64,000 nucleotides of DNA. It comes from Vicingus serpentipes. Its GTDB lineage: Bacteria > Bacteroidota > Bacteroidia > Flavobacteriales_E > Vicingaceae. The stretch is taken from positions 372,001-436,000 of the forward strand of contig NZ_VOOS01000002.1 of the NCBI RefSeq assembly GCF_007993035.1, read 5' to 3'. This document shows, piece after piece, positions 10,295 through 51,937 of this stretch. The first letter of the stretch is position 1; the number at the start of each line of letters is the position of its first letter. The notes beneath the pieces are model-generated. The model was not told the DNA's origin and did no database searches. It saw only the letters and a list, made by a program, of their open reading frames with translations. The position numbers and the translations under genes are program-made.

Positions 10295-11390
10295 CTACTG
10301 CTCCTCCGTTCTCTATTTTAAAAGCCTTAAAGTTAATGTTTTCTTCAGTTAAAATATCAGGTATTCTCGATAAACTTGTATCAGTTATAAATATCTGTCC
10401 AAAATCGCCATTACTCACTATAGCCAATAATTGCTTCATTCTATTATCATCCAGTTTATCAAAAATATCATCCAATAAAAAAATCACTTTCTTTTCACTA
10501 ATATTTTTAATCAACTCCGCTTGAGCCAACTTCAATGCCATTAAATAGGTTTTTTGTTGTCCTTGCGAACCAAACTTTTTCATCGGAAACTCATCAATAG
10601 CAAAAACCAAATCGTCTTTATGTATTCCAAAGTTGGTGTAATGATTAGCCTTATCCTTAGCTAAATTATTGACTAGCAGATTTTCAAAACTATCGTCATT
10701 TAATTGCGATTGATAGATTAAAGCAACTGTCTCTTTATTATTACTTAATTGAGTAAAATATTTCTGGAAAATTGGCGTAAAATCATCAACAAAAGTTTTT
10801 CTTGATTGATGAATAAGTGTTCCATACTTAATCAATTGCTCGTCCCAAATTTCCAACGAATCTTTGTCGAAATTTCGGTTTAACCAAAACGATTTTAATA
10901 ATAAATTCCGATGATGTAAGGCTTTATTGTAGTTTAATAAATTATTTAAATAGCTTTTATCGTATTGCGAAATTATTCCATCAATAAACTTTCTTCGGCC
11001 ATCACTCCCTTCAATAATTAATAAAATATCTATTGGCGAAATCATTACCAACGGAATTGTACCAATATGATCTGCTAATCGCTCGTAATTTTTCTTGTTT
11101 CGTTTAAATTGTTTTTTCTGATTTCGTTTTAATCCACAATAAATCACATCTGTTTTATCACCTTTATCATATATTCCTTCAACAACAAAAAATGGTTCTT
11201 CGTGCTTTATATTCTGGCTATCAATAGGATTAAAATAACTTTTACAAAACGATAAGTAGTATATCGCATCCAATAAATTTGTTTTTCCTTCACCATTGTT
11301 TCCTAAAAAGCAATTTACATTCTCCGTAAAGCTTAAATTGGCTTCACTGCAGTTTTTAAAATTTAAAATATTTAGCTCCTTAAGTAACAT
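10287..11390 (-). CDS. recF: DNA replication/repair protein RecF
   Basis: SMC-like ABC ATPase of 367 residues that binds gapped DNA and helps RecOR load RecA. The Walker A motif is FLGNNGEGKTN (about 28-38) in the typical context LNILNFKNCSEA...F. The RecF signature KFGSQGQQKTYLMALKLAQ and Walker B VIFLLDDIFDKLD lie in the C-terminal part. It is the first gene of an operon with DUF721 and DUF6913. Its -7 element TAAATTTG ends only four bases before the ATG, suggesting a leaderless transcript. dnaA and dnaN are not adjacent, as is usual in Bacteroidota. Confidence 0.96.
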   Translation of the reverse strand: MLLKELNILNFKNCSEANLSFTENVNCFLGNNGEGKTNLLDAIYYLSFCKSYFNPIDSQNIKHEEPFFVVEGIYDKGDKTDVIYCGLKRNQKKQFKRNKKNYERLADHIGTIPLVMISPIDILLIIEGSDGRRKFIDGIISQYDKSYLNNLLNYNKALHHRNLLLKSFWLNRNFDKDSLEIWDEQLIKYGTLIHQSRKTFVDDFTPIFQKYFTQLSNNKETVALIYQSQLNDDSFENLLVNNLAKDKANHYTNFGIHKDDLVFAIDEFPMKKFGSQGQQKTYLMALKLAQAELIKNISEKKVIFLLDDIFDKLDDNRMKQLLAIVSNGDFGQIFITDTSLSRIPDILTEENINFKAFKIENGGAVDV

Positions 11391-11394
11391 GACA

Positions 11395-11402
11395 CAAATT
11401 TA
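11395..11402 (-). promoter_or_regulatory. -7 element of recF promoter
   Basis: TAAATTTG on the minus strand, four bases before the recF ATG. Confidence 0.55.
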
Positions 11403-11432
11403 TTAATAACTTATAGAGAATTATCGTTAAAA

Positions 11433-11464
11433 TTGCTATTCATTTTAAAAAAAAGCTATTTTTG
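11433..11464 (+). promoter_or_regulatory. Promoter of TPR protein-ribH unit
   Basis: TTG at 11433-11435 and TATTTTTG at 11457-11464 are separated by 21 bases, close to the -33/-7 arrangement of Bacteroidota promoters. The ATG follows at 11491. Confidence 0.6.
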
Positions 11465-11490
11465 CAATCTTATAATAATTTTAGTGAACA

Positions 11491-12177
11491 ATGAGTAAGA
11501 AACATAACGAAGAAAATCAAGAAGTAATAGTTGACGTACAAGAAGTTTACAGTAAAACGGAACATTTTGTAGAAAACAACAAAAAAAACCTTTCAATTAT
11601 TGTTGGAGGTATTGTTGTAGTTATTGCATTATACTTAGGTTATACTAAAATGTATATCGCTCCAATGGAAATAGAAGCTCAATCATCTATGTTTATGGCT
11701 GAGAAATATTTTGAGCAAGATTCCCTACAAAAAGCAATTAATGGCGATGGTTTAAACTATGGTTTTATTGATATTATTGATGAGTATAGCGGAACAAAAT
11801 CGGCTAACATAGCACACTATTACTTAGGAATATCTTACTTAAGAACTGGTGATTTTGAAGCTGCTATTGATGAATTAAAAAGCTTTAGCTCTGACGATAT
11901 TATGATTAGTTCAATTGCTTTAGGTGCAATTGGTGATGCTTATTTAGAATTAGGAGAAATTGATGATGCAATTAGCTACTATAAAAAAGCAGCTAAAAAC
12001 CAAGCTAACAATTTAACTTCACCAATGTATTTGTTTAAAGCAGGTATTGCTTACGAAGAAAAAGGTGATTACCAAGCTGCTTTTGACAACTATACTACAA
12101 TTAAGAATGATTACGCTGAATCTAGCGAAGGTAGAACTATTGAAAAGTATTTAGCTAGAGCTGAAGCATTAAAATAG
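11491..12177 (+). CDS. membrane-anchored tetratricopeptide repeat protein
   Basis: Protein of 228 residues with a cytoplasmic N-terminus (about 1-34), one transmembrane helix (LSIIVGGIVVVIALYLGY, about 36-53) and an extracytoplasmic TPR region. At least three repeats are visible (AHYYLGISYLRTGDFEAAI, LGAIGDAYLELGEIDDAI, FKAGIAYEEKGDYQAAF). The layout resembles YfgM/TPR_21 proteins, ancillary partners of the Sec translocon, but that link is an inference. It is followed by ribH after three bases and shares its promoter. Confidence 0.85.
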   Translation: MSKKHNEENQEVIVDVQEVYSKTEHFVENNKKNLSIIVGGIVVVIALYLGYTKMYIAPMEIEAQSSMFMAEKYFEQDSLQKAINGDGLNYGFIDIIDEYSGTKSANIAHYYLGISYLRTGDFEAAIDELKSFSSDDIMISSIALGAIGDAYLELGEIDDAISYYKKAAKNQANNLTSPMYLFKAGIAYEEKGDYQAAFDNYTTIKNDYAESSEGRTIEKYLARAEALK

Positions 12178-45293: not shown

Positions 45294-45318
45294 TAAAATA
45301 GAATACATATCATAAACA

Positions 45319-45353
45319 AAAACAGCTCTCAAAATATTGAGAGCTGTTTTTAT
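45319..45353. terminator. bidirectional terminator; ends the seven-gene exported operon
   Basis: AAAAACAGCTCTCA / TGAGAGCTGTTTTT hairpin between convergent genes. Confidence 0.9.
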
Positions 45354-45375
45354 TTGACATTTAATTGGCAAAAAT

Positions 45376-46056
45376 CTATTCAGATTTGCCTCCAATTCTA
45401 ATTCCAATTTTAAGTGCTAATCTAAGATCAACTCCTAACTCATTACCAAAAAATGGAACATAGTTATTTTCATCAAATTCTTTATATTCTGTTTTGAAAG
45501 TTGTTCCAAAACCATCTTTGATTCCATCTTCAAACTCAGAATTGCTATACTTTACATCATTCATTATGAATTTACCGATACCAACAGTAGCTTCCATAAA
45601 TAAAGCTCCTGAAGTTTTCCATTTATATCCAGCCATAGCTCCTAAAGATATTCCTGTTGAAGTAATATCAGTACTAACAGTAGTCATAGTAGAAGTTGTC
45701 GGTAAAACATCTAAATAGCTATATTCAACACCTTTTGAAGATGAACTTCTATATTTACCATATACACCAATGTAAATACCATCGTTTCCTTTATTAGGAG
45801 TCATAAAGTATTTATATTCTGGTATGATATTCATTTCTGAATAGTCAATTTCACCATTCATATCTTTTGTATCAGACAACATATTTTTTGCAGCCATATT
45901 AAAGTTAATTCCAATAGAATTATTACTGTTAATGGCATACTCATAACCTAATCCATACTTAGAAAAGGCAAATCCTAACACATCAGTACTGATATCATGT
46001 TGTGCTTTTATATTTAAACCTGAAAATAATAAAGCAGCTATTAGTAGTTTTTTCAT
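45376..46056 (-). CDS. outer membrane beta-barrel protein, last gene of exported operon
   Basis: Exported protein of 226 residues; the signal peptide ends NIKAQ (about 19). The mature part shows amphipathic strands and short turns (FAFSKYGLGYEYAINSNN, GIYIGVYGKYRSSSS, ISLGAMAGYKWKTSGALFME, VDLRLALKIGIRIGG), typical of small eight- to ten-stranded barrels of the DUF3575 kind. It is the seventh gene of a minus-strand run of exported proteins, 23 bases after the previous gene. It may be the outer membrane part of a complex formed by the operon, an inference from position. Confidence 0.78.
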   Translation of the reverse strand: MKKLLIAALLFSGLNIKAQHDISTDVLGFAFSKYGLGYEYAINSNNSIGINFNMAAKNMLSDTKDMNGEIDYSEMNIIPEYKYFMTPNKGNDGIYIGVYGKYRSSSSKGVEYSYLDVLPTTSTMTTVSTDITSTGISLGAMAGYKWKTSGALFMEATVGIGKFIMNDVKYSNSEFEDGIKDGFGTTFKTEYKEFDENNYVPFFGNELGVDLRLALKIGIRIGGKSE

Positions 46057-46079
46057 AATAATAAATTTAAGTGTTTAAA

Positions 46080-47027
46080 TTACCATAGAGATTTATAAGT
46101 AACATTAGCTTTCGGCCCTTTACCATAAGCTACACCTATATCTCTAATTGCTTGAATTCTTTCACTTTCTTGTTGTTGATCCTTAACAATGTACTTCCAC
46201 TCTCTATCATCAATTTGCTTAACTTTTGCAGCAATTTTGTTTGATAAAGTTCTAGCTTGTGATGCACATGATGCATCTGGATTAATCGAAGCTAAAATAG
46301 CTCCAGCTTTTTCAGCTGCTGCCATATCTTGTGCTGCATTCCAAATACCCGTAGCTTCTTGTAACTTAACTTTACAATCATTATCAATTTTAGCTTTGAA
46401 AATTGGTTGAATTGCAGCCATTGCTTTTGAGTAACATTCTTCACAAGCTGTTGGTATGGCTGTTAACATAAAAATAGCTTCATCATATTCATTTTGATCA
46501 GCTTTAGATTGAGCTGTTTTTATAATCATATCACAATTATCTTTATAATATTGAATGATTTTTTCTTTACCAGTCTTAACAAAAGCTTGGATTTCTGGAT
46601 TTCCTGGTTTTATTTGTTTTAACCCAGCCATAAAAGCTTTTGTTTCATTAGTACCAACTCCTTTAACAGAAATTGTAGTACTTGAGAAAACAGTTCCTTC
46701 AAAACCGTCACCAATATATAAAGTTACATCCATATTATATGCATGCATTGGTGGTGGACCAGGAAGAATATCCTTAGAAGCTAAGGAAACATTTGCTGAG
46801 ATTATAAAACGAGTATTAAAAGGACTACCTCCTAAACCATTTTTGGTTACAACTTGTGTTAATTTATTTTCTAAATTTTTTCTAGCTTTTACTGGCATAT
46901 TTTCGATTCCTGCAGGAACCCAAGCTGTTAAGCTAATTCTATTTTCATCCTTAGAATCTGTTTGTGAAAACCCAACAGAACTTGCAAAAATGCAAAGACC
47001 TAAGAATAATTTACCTAAATTTTTCAT
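46080..47027 (-). CDS. exported protein of unknown function, gene 6 of exported operon
   Basis: Protein of 315 residues with a signal peptide ending VGFSQ (about 22). The N-terminal half is beta-rich (RISLTAWVPAGIENMPVKAR, TRFIISANVSLAS, YNMDVTLYIGDGFEGTVFSS); the C-terminal half is helical with TPR-like phrases (KTAQSKADQNEYDEAIFML, PTACEECYSKAMAAI). A regulated assembly or lipoprotein-like scaffold is possible but not shown. I do not recognise a named family. It lies 19 bases after the DUF6175 gene. Confidence 0.78.
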   Translation of the reverse strand: MKNLGKLFLGLCIFASSVGFSQTDSKDENRISLTAWVPAGIENMPVKARKNLENKLTQVVTKNGLGGSPFNTRFIISANVSLASKDILPGPPPMHAYNMDVTLYIGDGFEGTVFSSTTISVKGVGTNETKAFMAGLKQIKPGNPEIQAFVKTGKEKIIQYYKDNCDMIIKTAQSKADQNEYDEAIFMLTAIPTACEECYSKAMAAIQPIFKAKIDNDCKVKLQEATGIWNAAQDMAAAEKAGAILASINPDASCASQARTLSNKIAAKVKQIDDREWKYIVKDQQQESERIQAIRDIGVAYGKGPKANVTYKSLW

Positions 47028-47046
47028 AATAATATTTGTTTAGTTT

Positions 47047-48000
47047 TTATTTTTCTCCTAAAATAAGAGTAGCTCTTCCTAATCCTTTCATTACTAATTT
47101 ACTCTCAATTAGTCTAGGATCAGCTTTTAACCATTTTCTTAATCCGCTAGCAAATCTTCTTGCATCTTGAGCTCTACCTCTCTCATCAAATAAAGGAATT
47201 CTTACTTGCTCAAATAAAGCCATAGATTCAGTCATATCTGTAGTACTAAACCTTCCTTTAACAGTATTTTCTGCCATCCAATCTTCGATCAAAATACCTA
47301 ATTCATCATCTCCATAATCTTCACTTTCTAAATCTCCATCCCAAGAATCCCAAGTTTGAATTCTGATAATAACTTCACGTCCGTTAGCAAACATGTCATC
47401 AAAGTGAGATTGAAGACTAGCACTGAAATTATCAATATGAGCAGTAACAGCTTCTTTTAACAAAACAGGAACTTCAGCAGAAAAAGAAGGTGCTCCAGTT
47501 CCATTTGCACCAGCGATTTGTTTATCTGTATAAGCATCTAAACCTTGTAAAATAAAAGTGATCGATTTTTTAGGCCCTGTTGTATTAACAGTCCAAGTTA
47601 GTTGAATAATAATATCAGCTTTTGCTACTTTTTTCAAGGCATCAATTGGACTTTCATTAACTGAAGCTCCGGACTCTTTAGAAGATCTCATGTTATCTTC
47701 AGCAGCATTTGAAGCTAATGTTTTCATCGCAGACTCTAAATTCTTTAAAGGAAACCCTCTTTCTGCCATCATATCATTGATTGAGGAGATAACTAATAGT
47801 ATATCTGTATTTTCCTGCATTGCTTTTTTATAATCAGGAATTTTAGTAGTTGTTCCATCATTATCAAACTCCATTACATAACCATTTTTAATACACCAAG
47901 CATCACTTGGCACTACCATTAACGTTGGTTTTTTTGCTTGACCGAAACTTAAAGTTGTTCCTAAAACAATTAGGCTACATATTAATAATACTTTTTTCAT
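47047..48000 (-). CDS. DUF6175 family exported protein, gene 5 of exported operon
   Basis: Protein of 317 residues; the signal peptide ends LSFGQ (about 21). The chain opens with a strand KPTLMVVPSDAWCIKNGY and has an alpha/beta layout (DILLVISSINDMMAERGFP, KVAKADIIIQLTWTVNT, FILQGLDAYTDKQIAGA) that resembles the DUF6175 family and, more distantly, the CsgG/LpoB fold of envelope proteins. The C-terminal part is helical and basic (RRFASGLRKWLKADPRLIE). The family assignment is from memory; the fold comparison is inference. It sits centrally in the operon. Confidence 0.75.
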   Translation of the reverse strand: MKKVLLICSLIVLGTTLSFGQAKKPTLMVVPSDAWCIKNGYVMEFDNDGTTTKIPDYKKAMQENTDILLVISSINDMMAERGFPLKNLESAMKTLASNAAEDNMRSSKESGASVNESPIDALKKVAKADIIIQLTWTVNTTGPKKSITFILQGLDAYTDKQIAGANGTGAPSFSAEVPVLLKEAVTAHIDNFSASLQSHFDDMFANGREVIIRIQTWDSWDGDLESEDYGDDELGILIEDWMAENTVKGRFSTTDMTESMALFEQVRIPLFDERGRAQDARRFASGLRKWLKADPRLIESKLVMKGLGRATLILGEK

Positions 48001-48028
48001 AATTTTTATTTTATATTTTATTTAGTTA

Positions 48029-48538
48029 TTATTTCTTCATGATTCCATCCTGAATCATTCTTTCTTTTAATTTTGCTCTTTGAACACGAATAGTTACACC
48101 ATAAGTTACTTGGTCTCCAGATTTTTTTCGCCCTTGAACTACTGTAAAGTGCATATCAGAACCATCTTCTCCTGTAATAAATTCTTTGTATGGTCCACCA
48201 TCAGCAAAAAAAGCATTGAAATAATCTTCTTTTTTCTCACGAATATTTACTTCAAATAAAACTGGCTTAGAGTTGCACTCTGTTCTACCAGATCTTATTC
48301 CTTTAAACAGCACATCACTTACACCTTGTTTTTTAGCTTGTTCTATTGCATCTTCCCTATTTCTTCCGTTTCCCCATGCTTTTAAAGTTTGTGATCCATC
48401 CATTTCTGTACCCATACACTCTGTTTCATAAGTATATGCTCCAGACATACTTTTTTGAGGATTTCCGCATGAAAATGATAAAACACTTATTATAGTTACA
48501 GCCAAAAAACTACCGATTGTTAAGTTTAATTTTTTCAT
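48029..48538 (-). CDS. lipoprotein paralogous to the preceding operon gene, gene 4
   Basis: Lipoprotein of 169 residues; lipobox LSFSCGN (Cys about 24). The mature part reads YETECMGTEMDGSQTLKAWG, EDAIEQAKKQGVSDVLFKG and KKEDYFNAFFADGGPYKEFI. The same order of blocks occurs in the 173-residue protein encoded just upstream (48558-49079), so the two arose by duplication. The repeat-strand pattern with AKKQG...FKGI is reminiscent of LPP20-type envelope proteins. The partner protein has an ordinary signal peptide instead of a lipobox. Confidence 0.78.
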   Translation of the reverse strand: MKKLNLTIGSFLAVTIISVLSFSCGNPQKSMSGAYTYETECMGTEMDGSQTLKAWGNGRNREDAIEQAKKQGVSDVLFKGIRSGRTECNSKPVLFEVNIREKKEDYFNAFFADGGPYKEFITGEDGSDMHFTVVQGRKKSGDQVTYGVTIRVQRAKLKERMIQDGIMKK

Positions 48539-48557
48539 AATTTTTTGTTTTTATATA

Positions 48558-49079
48558 TTAAAATCCAGACGACAGACCTCTAACAACACCTGCTGCCTCT
48601 AAATCTTTTCTTAAATTATCAGTCATAACAACTACAACTACACCAACTTTATACTCTTTTCCAACTTTAACAACAGTAGGAACATTATCTCCTGACATAG
48701 ACACAAATTTCATATACTTACCACCTTCGGCAAAGAAATCTTTAAAAAAATCTTCTTTTTCTTGTTCTACAGCTGGGTTGTTTGATAATGGTTTTTGAGC
48801 AGTACAACCCTGACCTCCAGCGGCATACCCCTGAAAAATCAATCCATGCACAGCATTTTTCTTAGATTGAGTTTGTGCTATTGTAGCTTTTTTAGAATAA
48901 GACCATACTCTTACTACTTTAGTTCCTGGTTTACCAATACCAACACATTCTATTTCGTATCTCCAATTTTCTGTATCTTTATTTGCTTTCTTTTTCTTGT
49001 TAATTTGTGCATTTGAAACTAAAGAAAAAGCAAGAAAACATAGTGTTAAAATACTTACCTTATTAATTATTGTTTTCAT
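48558..49079 (-). CDS. exported protein, soluble paralogue of the operon lipoprotein, gene 3
   Basis: Protein of 173 residues with a signal peptide ending LVSNAQ (about 25), no lipobox. Blocks WRYEIECVGIGKPGTKVVRV, QSKKNAVHGLIFQGYAAGGQ and EKEDFFKDFFAEGGKYMKFV align in order with the lipoprotein encoded 19 bases downstream. The C-terminus ends DNLRKDLEAAGVVRGLSSGF. Two conserved cysteines (in EIECVG and GQGCTA) are shared with the paralogue (ETECMG, RTECNS), which suggests a common disulfide. Confidence 0.78.
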   Translation of the reverse strand: MKTIINKVSILTLCFLAFSLVSNAQINKKKKANKDTENWRYEIECVGIGKPGTKVVRVWSYSKKATIAQTQSKKNAVHGLIFQGYAAGGQGCTAQKPLSNNPAVEQEKEDFFKDFFAEGGKYMKFVSMSGDNVPTVVKVGKEYKVGVVVVVMTDNLRKDLEAAGVVRGLSSGF

Positions 49080-49114
49080 AATGATTTGTTATTTAATTTA
49101 TAATTGATTACTAT

Positions 49115-50491
49115 TTAATTTATTTGTCTAATTAACATTCCAGGGTAATAACCTTTACCTCCTTTGAAATGAGTATACTCTAAATTATTTAATGGTGCAA
49201 TAGGATTACCATCTTCATCTAGTGGTTCTTCACCAGCTGCATATCTATTATCCCAAATTTTCTTCTTATCAACAGAAATTGTACCTTTTCTCTTGTAAGA
49301 AACTTTTCCTTCTGCATCAGTAATTTGTTCTAAAACCTCATATTTATCTCCTCCTTCTAAGCCTTCTTTCATACCTATTTTTGCTCCTAATGGGTCACTA
49401 CTCACTAAAGGTGTTTTTGTTCTAAATGGTTCAAATTTTCTTTGAAGTTTTGCATAAACAGCATCAATAGATTTTAATGTAGCATTTTTAATAATCATAT
49501 CTTCATCTTGAGCATTTTTACCCATTCCAGAAATAAACGATGATGCCTTTTGAAAACCTAACAATTTCAACTGAAATAAATCAGTGTTATCAAAAGCTTC
49601 TTTTTTAGCTGGGTCAATATTTGAGTCATCCATCCATAAAGATTGATAGAAAACTGCTGATGTAGAATCGTTCCAAACCAATTGATATAGATAAGCAGTA
49701 GTCCATACTGAATAACCTTGTCTTGTTTTTTCATAAACTGCCTCTGCTCCTTTAATAGCAATATTTTGAGCCATTGCAGGTAATTTTGCAGCAGCAGCTA
49801 CAGCTATATTCTTAGCAGCTAGAGCAGCAACTTCGTTACTTACAAATTTTGAATAATTAACAACAACAAAAGTACTTGGTATAAGTTCTTCCCCAGCATC
49901 AGCTAACATTGATGTTCCTCTTTCAGTTCCTGAAGCAACAGCTGCAGATTGAGCAGAAGCATCATAAAGACCTCTTTCTCCAATTAAATCCATCTTAAAA
50001 CCACCTGCTTCACTTCTATCAAACCATTTTGCAACAATTTTGTTTGCGACTTTATTTTTTGCAAAATACTCACTTATTGCAGGACTTAAATCTTTATCTT
50101 CTTTTTCTGCTTTTTCACCCTCTACAACTGGTTTTTCAATAATGTAATCCTTAATATTAAAAGATTTTTCTCCAATTGTGTGATCATTATATTTATCAGG
50201 AAATGGAGCTTCGTTAAACGTGCTTAATAAGAGGTCTTTTTTAGGAAGTTTTTCATCTTCAATAATCATAGTATGAAGTGAACTTCTTCTATACTTTACA
50301 GCTTCAGCTTTCTTATCAGCTATTCCAATTTTTCCAGAATCTTTTTCTACCTTTTCTTTCTTTTCCTTCCCTTTCTTTTCTTCTTTAACTTCTGCATCTT
50401 GAGCAAAAGAAACATTACTAATTAGTAATAAACATACTGGAGCAACTTTCACAAAATGTTTAACACCAGTAAATTGTAATTTTAAATTCAT
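49115..50491 (-). CDS. large exported protein of unknown function, gene 2 of exported operon
   Basis: Protein of 458 residues with a signal peptide (about 1-31, ending VSFAQ). A charged Lys/Glu linker (about 33-56) precedes a mixed domain with phrases FVVVNYSKFVSNEVAALAAK, YSVWTTAYLYQLVWNDSTSA and KLLGFQKASSFISGMG. The C-terminal segment contains a proline and glycine-rich end (HFKGGKGYYPGMLIRQIN). I know of no named family. It is the longest protein in the operon and follows gene 1 by 43 bases. Confidence 0.78.
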   Translation of the reverse strand: MNLKLQFTGVKHFVKVAPVCLLLISNVSFAQDAEVKEEKKGKEKKEKVEKDSGKIGIADKKAEAVKYRRSSLHTMIIEDEKLPKKDLLLSTFNEAPFPDKYNDHTIGEKSFNIKDYIIEKPVVEGEKAEKEDKDLSPAISEYFAKNKVANKIVAKWFDRSEAGGFKMDLIGERGLYDASAQSAAVASGTERGTSMLADAGEELIPSTFVVVNYSKFVSNEVAALAAKNIAVAAAAKLPAMAQNIAIKGAEAVYEKTRQGYSVWTTAYLYQLVWNDSTSAVFYQSLWMDDSNIDPAKKEAFDNTDLFQLKLLGFQKASSFISGMGKNAQDEDMIIKNATLKSIDAVYAKLQRKFEPFRTKTPLVSSDPLGAKIGMKEGLEGGDKYEVLEQITDAEGKVSYKRKGTISVDKKKIWDNRYAAGEEPLDEDGNPIAPLNNLEYTHFKGGKGYYPGMLIRQIN

Positions 50492-50534
50492 TAATTCTAT
50501 TTTTTAATTTATTATTTAATTATTTAAAGATCCT

Positions 50535-50993
50535 TTATTTAGATTCTTGATTTTTTATTTGTTCTAATTGAATAGGGAAATTCTCTTTAGTCATATTCAA
50601 TGCTTTTGTAGCTGAATTTATTGCTTTTACAGCCTTCATAGAATTTGTTTTAGGAGTAATAGTCTTAGCTTCTTTCATAACATCCGCTGATTGACCTAAT
50701 AATCCTTTAACCTCATTTGTTTGATTTTCTAAATCGTTTTTTATTGATTTGATTTCAGTAGCATTTCCAGCAGCATTCGATAACTTTTCAGTTAATTTTA
50801 TGTTTCTTTCATAAACATCAAACGATGAGTCTACAAACTTATCTGTAGCAGCATGACCAACAATACCTGGTCTCTCAATAACCTTCTCTGTTTTTGCTTT
50901 CTTCTCGCCCTTTTGAGCAAATGTGTTAGCTGACATTCCTAAAATTAATAGTGCAACAAATGCAATTTTAGCTAATAATGCTATTTTTTTCAT
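50535..50993 (-). CDS. exported helical protein, first gene of the seven-gene operon
   Basis: Protein of 152 residues with a signal peptide (about 1-27, ending ANTFAQ), then a Lys-rich linker and a long helical region (KLTEKLSNAAGNATEIKSIK, KGLLGQSADVMKEAKTI, MKAVKAINSATKALNMTKEN). It is probably an extended helical or coiled-coil periplasmic protein. The consensus promoter of the operon (TTTG, 18 bases, TATATTTG) lies immediately upstream. Function unknown. Confidence 0.78.
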   Translation of the reverse strand: MKKIALLAKIAFVALLILGMSANTFAQKGEKKAKTEKVIERPGIVGHAATDKFVDSSFDVYERNIKLTEKLSNAAGNATEIKSIKNDLENQTNEVKGLLGQSADVMKEAKTITPKTNSMKAVKAINSATKALNMTKENFPIQLEQIKNQESK

Positions 50994-51016
50994 ATTTTAT
51001 TATTTTGATTGATTAA

Positions 51017-51046
51017 CAAATATAACTGAAAAAGTTTTAAATCAAA
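51017..51046 (-). promoter_or_regulatory. consensus promoter of the exported operon
   Basis: On the minus strand TTTG (51046-51043), 18 bases, then TATATTTG (51024-51017), 23 bases before the ATG. One of the two best -33/-7 pairs in the window. Confidence 0.7.
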
Positions 51047-51099: not shown

Positions 51100-51135
51100 A
51101 AAAATAAGGGAGACAAATGAGCCTCCCTTATTTTT
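51100..51135 (-). terminator. intrinsic terminator of the DUF4476 gene
   Basis: On the minus strand AAATAAGGGAG / CTCCCTTATTTTTTT with an A/T-rich loop. Confidence 0.8.
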
Positions 51136-51937
51136 ATGCGTATTGTAATAAAAAACTATTTAAATTCTCTACTGAACTACTAAAAGTAAATTGTTCATTA
51201 ACTAAGAAATAATTCTGCTTATCTACCGTTTTTTCATAAGCAATTTTAGCTAGAGCTAATTTATGAGAATCAAAACTAAACTGATTCATTAGCATTGAAA
51301 TTTGCTCTGTAGTAAAATAATTATCTCTTAGAGCTTGTTTAACAACTATTAATTTTGTCGCATCAAAACTTGTATTATTAACAAGTCTTAAAAGATTATT
51401 AAAACTAGGCTCAGACATTACCATTGGTGAATTTTGAAAAAATGGATTAAAATCATTATCATAATTACTAGAATGACCATAGTCATCAAAATTATCACAA
51501 CTACAGTTGTAGCCATTATCAAACCCACAAGAAGCTTGATGTCCTTGATTATAATGATTCCCATTTGAATGAACATTGTTATTTTTCACAATCCTTAAAT
51601 CAAGTCTTCTGTTTTTAGTAACAACAGCTTTAACTTCTGCATTCTTAGGAATTTTAATTGTTCCACTGTAAAGAACTCTTCTCAACCCACCATTTCCAAA
51701 TTTATTTGGAGTTAAAGTTATTACTTGAATATTATGAACTCCTGGTGTGATATTTGCTAAGTTAAATTGGTTCGATTTAGCAAAAGTATGGTTATCAAAA
51801 ACTACAGTGAAAGCGTGATGATTCCATAATTTTAAATTTAAACCAGAATTGTAATTATTACTTCCATTATAACCATGAGCACTTATAATAGTAATTACGC
51901 CAAAAATTGCGATAAATATTAAACTTAGCTTTTTCAT
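51134..51937 (-). CDS. DUF4476 family exported protein
   Basis: Exported protein of 267 residues with a signal peptide ending IISAH (about 20). An N-terminal beta-sandwich-like part (FTVVFDNHTFAKSNQFNLAN, HNIQVITLTPN) and a His/Asn-rich linker (about 120-170) precede the DUF4476 domain, a helical repeat with FNNLLRLVNNTSFDATKLIV and ISMLMNQFSFDSHKLALAKI. The role of DUF4476 is unknown. Notably it has a canonical Shine-Dalgarno (AGGAGG, eight bases before the ATG), rare in this phylum. It is not part of the operon downstream: a terminator lies between. Confidence 0.85.
   Translation of the reverse strand: MKKLSLIFIAIFGVITIISAHGYNGSNNYNSGLNLKLWNHHAFTVVFDNHTFAKSNQFNLANITPGVHNIQVITLTPNKFGNGGLRRVLYSGTIKIPKNAEVKAVVTKNRRLDLRIVKNNNVHSNGNHYNQGHQASCGFDNGYNCSCDNFDDYGHSSNYDNDFNPFFQNSPMVMSEPSFNNLLRLVNNTSFDATKLIVVKQALRDNYFTTEQISMLMNQFSFDSHKLALAKIAYEKTVDKQNYFLVNEQFTFSSSVENLNSFLLQYA

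Follow-up and report, generated by a model that had tools for sequence, protein, structure and literature searches.

This report concerns a run of seven genes in a stretch of 64,000 nucleotides from Vicingus serpentipes (contig NZ_VOOS01000002.1, positions 372,001 to 436,000), hereafter the window, whose own 64-kb numbering is used for the coordinates of this operon. The genes, lettered A to G in operon order from first to last, are seven consecutive open reading frames (ORFs) on the minus strand, separated by 43, 35, 19, 28, 19 and 23 nucleotides. Part of this operon recurs in other Bacteroidota, and the sections below describe the genes, their conservation and what their products may build.

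The operon and its boundaries

Gene A (50535–50993) encodes an exported helical protein of 152 amino acids, and gene B (49115–50491) a protein whose predicted fold, judged from locus profiles and models, corresponds to the middle and C-terminal domains of FlgT. Gene C (48558–49079) encodes an exported protein with a predicted SHS2-like domain, weakly matching those of the FlgT N-terminus and LPP20 proteins, and gene D (48029–48538) its lipoprotein-like paralogue (hhalign 4.7e-38). The product of gene E (47047–48000) belongs to DUF6175 and, according to a model, has a CsgG/PelC-type fold in its first half (E-N). Gene F (46080–47027) encodes a protein whose first half is related to the C-terminus of LPP20 proteins, with a CC_3750-like predicted fold, and whose second half is helical, while gene G (45376–46056) encodes a DUF3575 outer-membrane barrel. 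Two of the seven proteins exceed the Pfam cut-off, namely E (3.1e-123) and G (4e-11), and nothing exceeds it in A, B, C, D or F; the match of E to DUF6175 (PF19672) is full-length, with 411 bits against a cut-off of 23 over positions 1–293 of 293. Signal peptides, which were judged by an ad hoc hydropathy-and-cleavage rule and not by SignalP, appear type I-like in A, B, C, E, F and G and lipoprotein-like in D.

The operon is followed by an intrinsic terminator (45314–45355, minus strand), a near-perfect inverted repeat of bidirectional shape that folds at −25.5 kcal/mol (z −6.9), a stability equalled by 0 of 200 shuffles; a generic scan of the window had missed it. At the other end, a promoter-like motif of the Bacteroidota type, TTTG-18-TATATTTG (51017–51046, minus strand), lies 23 nucleotides 5' of the start codon of gene A. 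The first-pass annotation, made from the letters of this DNA, had described seven adjacent exported genes with gaps of 19–43 nucleotides, including a paralogous soluble/lipoprotein pair, a DUF6175 protein with a CsgG-like look and an outer-membrane barrel, followed by a strong terminator, and all of this agrees with the present results, since all seven ORFs were recovered with signal-peptide-like starts. The consensus promoter that it placed before A stands only in part: the motif is present, but the pattern TTTGN17-20TANNTTTG occurs five times in the window, where shuffled sequence would give 4.28, so that only its position before A argues for a promoter.

A conserved unit of five genes and its distribution

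Loci related to the operon were collected by searching E against named genomes and keeping the best 80 of 111 relatives, all of which contain E by construction, and family profiles for the other genes were built from these 80 loci and searched back against them. The profiles matched B in 73 loci, C in 77, D in 36 and F in 77, but A in only 5 and G in only 4; of 35 D proteins, 25 have a lipoprotein-like start. Where enough DNA was available, E has C or D as its immediate upstream neighbour, in the same orientation, in 75 of 78 loci (the remaining three are two natural C-E fusions, L069 and L073, and an artefact of ORF choice), F lies directly downstream of E in 72 of 75, and B is present in 66 of 71. 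The adjacency counts used a greedy choice of ORFs that dropped the E of L081 and hid the C and D of L088, which the profile search lists; the sequence of L088 also stops soon after F, at the position where its Alistipes relatives have B. The usual gene order is B-C-(D)-E-F, and three Alistipes loci have C-D-E-F-B. Outside the core, any flanking cluster is held in common by 496 of 3160 locus pairs, and by 216 once the three largest clusters are removed. Since the core order is kept while the flanks vary, the conserved unit consists of the five genes B-C-(D)-E-F, in which D is core though not universal, and A and G are local additions. The seven-gene unit first proposed is therefore replaced by one of five, and the description of the set as envelope-spanning also gives way, because all seven products look exported and no recurring inner-membrane partner was recognised beside the set.

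The co-occurrence of these genes was likewise observed directly. B, C, E and F each occur in the identical 13 of 60 relatives; these carriers come from three genera, all in a single family, and hence do not represent 13 independent cases, and two genomes of the same genera (G028 and G035) are without the set. In a sample of 395 genomes of the phylum, E was found in 19 (8 strong matches, at 3e-45 or better, and 11 weak) and B in 9 (5 strong, each in a genome with a strong E, and 4 weak; of the latter, the one in G336 occurs without E). The set is thus patchy and mostly travels as a block. The independent scatter of its genes that would have spoken against the first-pass annotation is not seen, given their shared carriers and their adjacency in the 80 loci. 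The carriers include several named strains in the genera Aequorivita, Flavobacterium and Mucilaginibacter.

Horizontal transfer of the set is plausible from the divergence of E, whose median identity, in groups assigned by hand and partly from record titles, is 64% within Flavobacteriia, 63 and 65% between Flavobacteriia and Chitinophagia or Sphingobacteriia, and lower from Flavobacteriia to Bacteroidales (57%) and Cytophagia (56%). A search of 72,556 plasmid records, which did not extend to phages or viral contigs, gave no match to E. A metagenome-assembled genome labelled Chlorobiota carries an E that is 72% identical to that of the window (L028:2753-3709), which would represent either transfer or contamination.

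Several further observations touch individual members of the set. Just upstream of the operon and on the same strand, the window encodes an exported DUF4476 protein (51134–51937, minus strand), and locus L024 has a similar gene before A (209 bits). A recurring exported protein follows F in three loci (L053:11958-12869, L069:3315-4619 and L073:7719-9023), its LPP20 match not being significant, and in L041 (7545-9993) B, C and D lie in overlapping pieces, which points to decay or sequencing error. The genome of the window itself holds a second B-type protein on contig C3, beside a protein of 361 amino acids (L094:9116-10750 and 10756-11841); both have weak, sub-threshold matches to the UVR motif, and a similar pair is found at L096:8622-11202. 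In some flavobacteria B carries an N-terminal extension of 375–540 amino acids (L045:6689-8308, L068:6174-7565 and L072:6676-7800), in which Pfam gives just a sub-threshold UVR match, in L045.

Predicted folds and divergent relatives

Structural comparison relied on AlphaFold2 models of read-through chains, in which only the folds of domains are readable: a B-C model from L016 (654 residues, mean predicted local distance difference test 77.0, predicted template modelling score 0.59) and a C-E-F model from L027 (813 residues, 77.4 and 0.42, respectively). An attempt to align a natural C-E fusion with C and E as individual rows was discarded, since it scattered the C sequences across E. The two best matches of the B-C model in the PDB are FlgT (3w1e, 2.6e-4) and chain 0 of the LPHT-ring structure 8z5n (1.0e-3), which by its length and numbering is probably also FlgT; the next match is at 0.22. 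In VIA, residues 73–471 of the predicted B align on FlgT 91–354 (Z 7.4, 10.8 Å, 214 residues) and B aligns similarly on 8z5n (Z 7.7, 11.8 Å, 213 residues), while its small C-terminal barrel resembles the N-terminal barrels of rotary ATPases. The ring-forming subset of LPP20/FlgP proteins is marked by an SHS2 fold in which an insert separates the helix from the second strand. The predicted C has a helix at 62–80 and strands at 136–152, with about 55 residues between them and no long beta-hairpin of the FlgP style (PMC12222027), and it matches Lpp20 weakly (Z 4.5). E-N (residues 202–386 of the C-E-F model) would share the fold of CsgG (Z 10.6) and of PelC (Z 9.5, 2.7 Å over 106 residues), and C together with E-N (49–383) aligns with FlgT 1–267 (Z 8.9, 15.3 Å, 195 residues). 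Finally, residues 524–656 of the same model, within F, resemble the Caulobacter lipoprotein CC_3750 (Z 9.1). The predicted likeness holds domain by domain, with modest scores, and not as a superposition of whole chains, and each predicted piece, taken singly, is a common envelope fold.

A different kind of evidence comes from divergent loci, defined as the stretches around weak E matches. The order B-like, C, E, F is kept in L098, whereas other loci begin differently: with an LpoB/CsgG-like protein before C, E and F in L099 and L100, and in L101 with a protein whose LpoB match is below the cut-off (0.025), followed by a protein of 520 amino acids and then C, E and F. The neighbour of C matches the Pfam families LpoB (2.9e-9) and CsgG (1.9e-8) in L099, and CsgG barely above the cut-off (2.2e-4) in L100. 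In L095, L097, L102 and L103 C and E are fused and an LPP20-type protein takes the position of F, with matches to PF02169 in L097 (5.9e-10), L102 (1.2e-7) and L095 (6.7e-6). L102 also has a B-like protein 4.7 kb before the C-E fusion, and the end of the B-like protein of L097 gives a match to OMP_b-brl_2 (5.2e-4) that falls below the cut-off. Barrels neighbour the set in L055 (2.3e-25) and in L099, where one follows F and another lies further up; of the two barrel matches in L099, one is at 5.3e-9 and the other, at 4e-6, is just below its cut-off. The window families are linked to the profiles of these deep families (B 1.4e-7, C 8.8e-8, E 1.8e-9), as is the F profile to the C-terminal part of LPP20 proteins (1.2e-6), all as single comparisons. 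Like the C-E fusions, the sequence links from the window set to divergent loci in which LPP20, LpoB/CsgG and barrel proteins occur are direct observations.

A possible outer-membrane scaffold and its alternatives

The reading that we favour, tentatively and at somewhat short of an even chance, is that B to F form one periplasmic complex associated with the outer membrane, built from domains of the H-ring, CsgG and LPP20 types and not serving a flagellum. The folds in this proposal are predicted, and from them and the loci we infer the complex, its ring shape and its role as a scaffold. Lipidated D would tether the complex to the outer membrane on its periplasmic side; SHS2-like C and D would make an oligomer, perhaps a ring, on which E and B, with their CsgG-like and FlgT-middle-like domains, would pack; the membrane partner would be an outer-membrane barrel, G here and others elsewhere; and the whole assembly would act as a collar or scaffold. 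The flagellum-free character of such a scaffold is proposed because a kit resembling that of the H-ring (FlgT-like B and C-E, LPP20 and LpoB/CsgG partners, lipoprotein-like D and a recurring but not constant barrel) occurs in carriers in which the core flagellar protein FlhA (PF00771) was found in 0 of 13 genomes, the control having matched in 4 of 14. A bolder version, which we consider possible but doubtful, is that Bacteroidota possess a flagellum-independent H-ring-like machine, partly spread by transfer, in which a periplasmic ring of FlgT/FlgP/CsgG-type parts, anchored in the outer membrane, braces an unseen machine or an opening in that membrane.

Several results weigh against the favoured reading. 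In Pfam, the window proteins have no match to FlgT, LPP20, CsgG or LpoB: up to an E-value of 1, no FlgT family was found in B, C or E, no PF03783 or PF13036 (CsgG/LpoB) in E or B, and no PF02169 (LPP20) in C, D or F. By sequence the window proteins are not members of these four families, and what is proposed is a likeness of construction, and perhaps of working, to such assemblies. FlgT_M was silent in the window's own genome, but equally so in its 14 controls, so that its silence says nothing either way. None of the profiles of the five core families had a meaningful match among PDB sequences, and profile comparison gave no link of C to LPP20 proteins (probability 9%) or of B and E to LpoB/CsgG proteins (4% and 1%). 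The structural agreement is also limited. The template modelling (TM) scores of the B-C model against FlgT structures are 0.14–0.24, and over whole chains the agreement with FlgT is poor (root-mean-square deviation 11–15 Å, TM-scores 0.12–0.24). The Z-scores of B, 7.4–7.7, lie below the caution line of the tool, the unrelated chlamydial CT253 (6uxc) tied with FlgT for B at Z 7.2, C reaches no more than Z 4.6 with Tip-alpha and Z 4.5 with Lpp20, and the predicted fold of E-N is also found in LptE, PqiC and TolB. In the phylum sample, moreover, three genomes with a strong E (G210, G214 and G374) give no match to B, and B and E lie on separate contigs in G135, G193 and G446, which belong to deep lineages, so the linkage is not universal.

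The same evidence can be read in other ways. The predicted likeness of E-N to CsgG and PelC, the LpoB/CsgG protein that immediately precedes C in L099 and L100, and the presence of barrel neighbours would suit an export channel of the CsgG or PelBC type, in which a ring of E, or in some genomes of the LpoB/CsgG protein, would sit under a barrel through which a protein or polymer leaves, A or neighbouring products being the cargo. We regard such a channel as unlikely, given that LptE, PqiC and TolB share the fold, that no constant cargo gene or barrel family recurs at the loci, and that A is present in only 5 of 80. Those shared folds, together with the resemblance of E-N to GNA1162 and the LpoB match in L099, could also point to a set for the maintenance of the outer membrane, in which small periplasmic lipoprotein-type domains would control peptidoglycan synthases, as LpoB does, or handle lipids in the manner of LptE or PqiC. 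This seems rather improbable, because a distribution as patchy as 13 of 60 relatives and 19 of 395 genomes in the phylum is unlike that of a housekeeping set, and no cell-wall or lipid-transport gene was recognised as a recurring neighbour.

The set might also serve type IX secretion or gliding, as a collar or accessory part of that machinery, and here a client is available, since SprA_N was found in 13 of 13 carriers. It was found, too, in 59 of 60 relatives whether or not they have the set, which indicates no specific link and means that co-occurrence cannot decide the matter; no gld, spr or por gene was recognised beside the 80 loci, and we give this explanation only a slight probability.

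No published description of the B-C-(D)-E-F set, and no paper naming DUF6175, was found in the literature searched, in keeping with the initial remark that no function has been described for these proteins. DUF6175 and four unnamed families gain a shared context that can be tested. H-ring and basal-disk proteins are familiar as accessories of flagellar motors. A similar predicted kit, inherited together in genomes that lack FlhA, would serve as an outgroup in tracing the origins of these rings and would point to an unstudied outer-membrane structure.

The comparison with known systems is closest for the H-ring. In the parts of the literature consulted, the Vibrio H-ring is described as composed of FlgO, FlgP and FlgT (PMC6375700), FlgT as required for the stability of the polar flagellum of Aeromonas (PMC4960245), and an SHS2-like fold as common to FlgP, Lpp20 and FlgT (PMC12222027). 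The window set resembles this system in the predicted correspondence of B to the middle and C-terminal domains of FlgT and of C plus E-N to its N-terminal and middle domains, and in the LPP20- and LpoB/CsgG-type partners of the divergent loci. It differs in having neither sequence matches to FlgT nor FlhA in its carriers, and in its architecture: FlgT holds its N-terminal, middle and C-terminal domains on one chain, whereas here the N-like domain is the separate gene C and the alignment of B begins only at FlgT residue 91. With CsgG and PelC the set shares the predicted periplasmic fold of E-N, but E lacks a CsgG Pfam match and carries an additional domain, and its neighbours include no recognised curli or Pel gene. 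As for the LPP20 lipoproteins, such as Lpp20 and FlgP, the window C, D and F are without an LPP20 Pfam match; C is predicted to be weakly similar in fold to Lpp20, and F shows a relationship to the C-terminal portion of the very LPP20-domain proteins that replace it in divergent loci.

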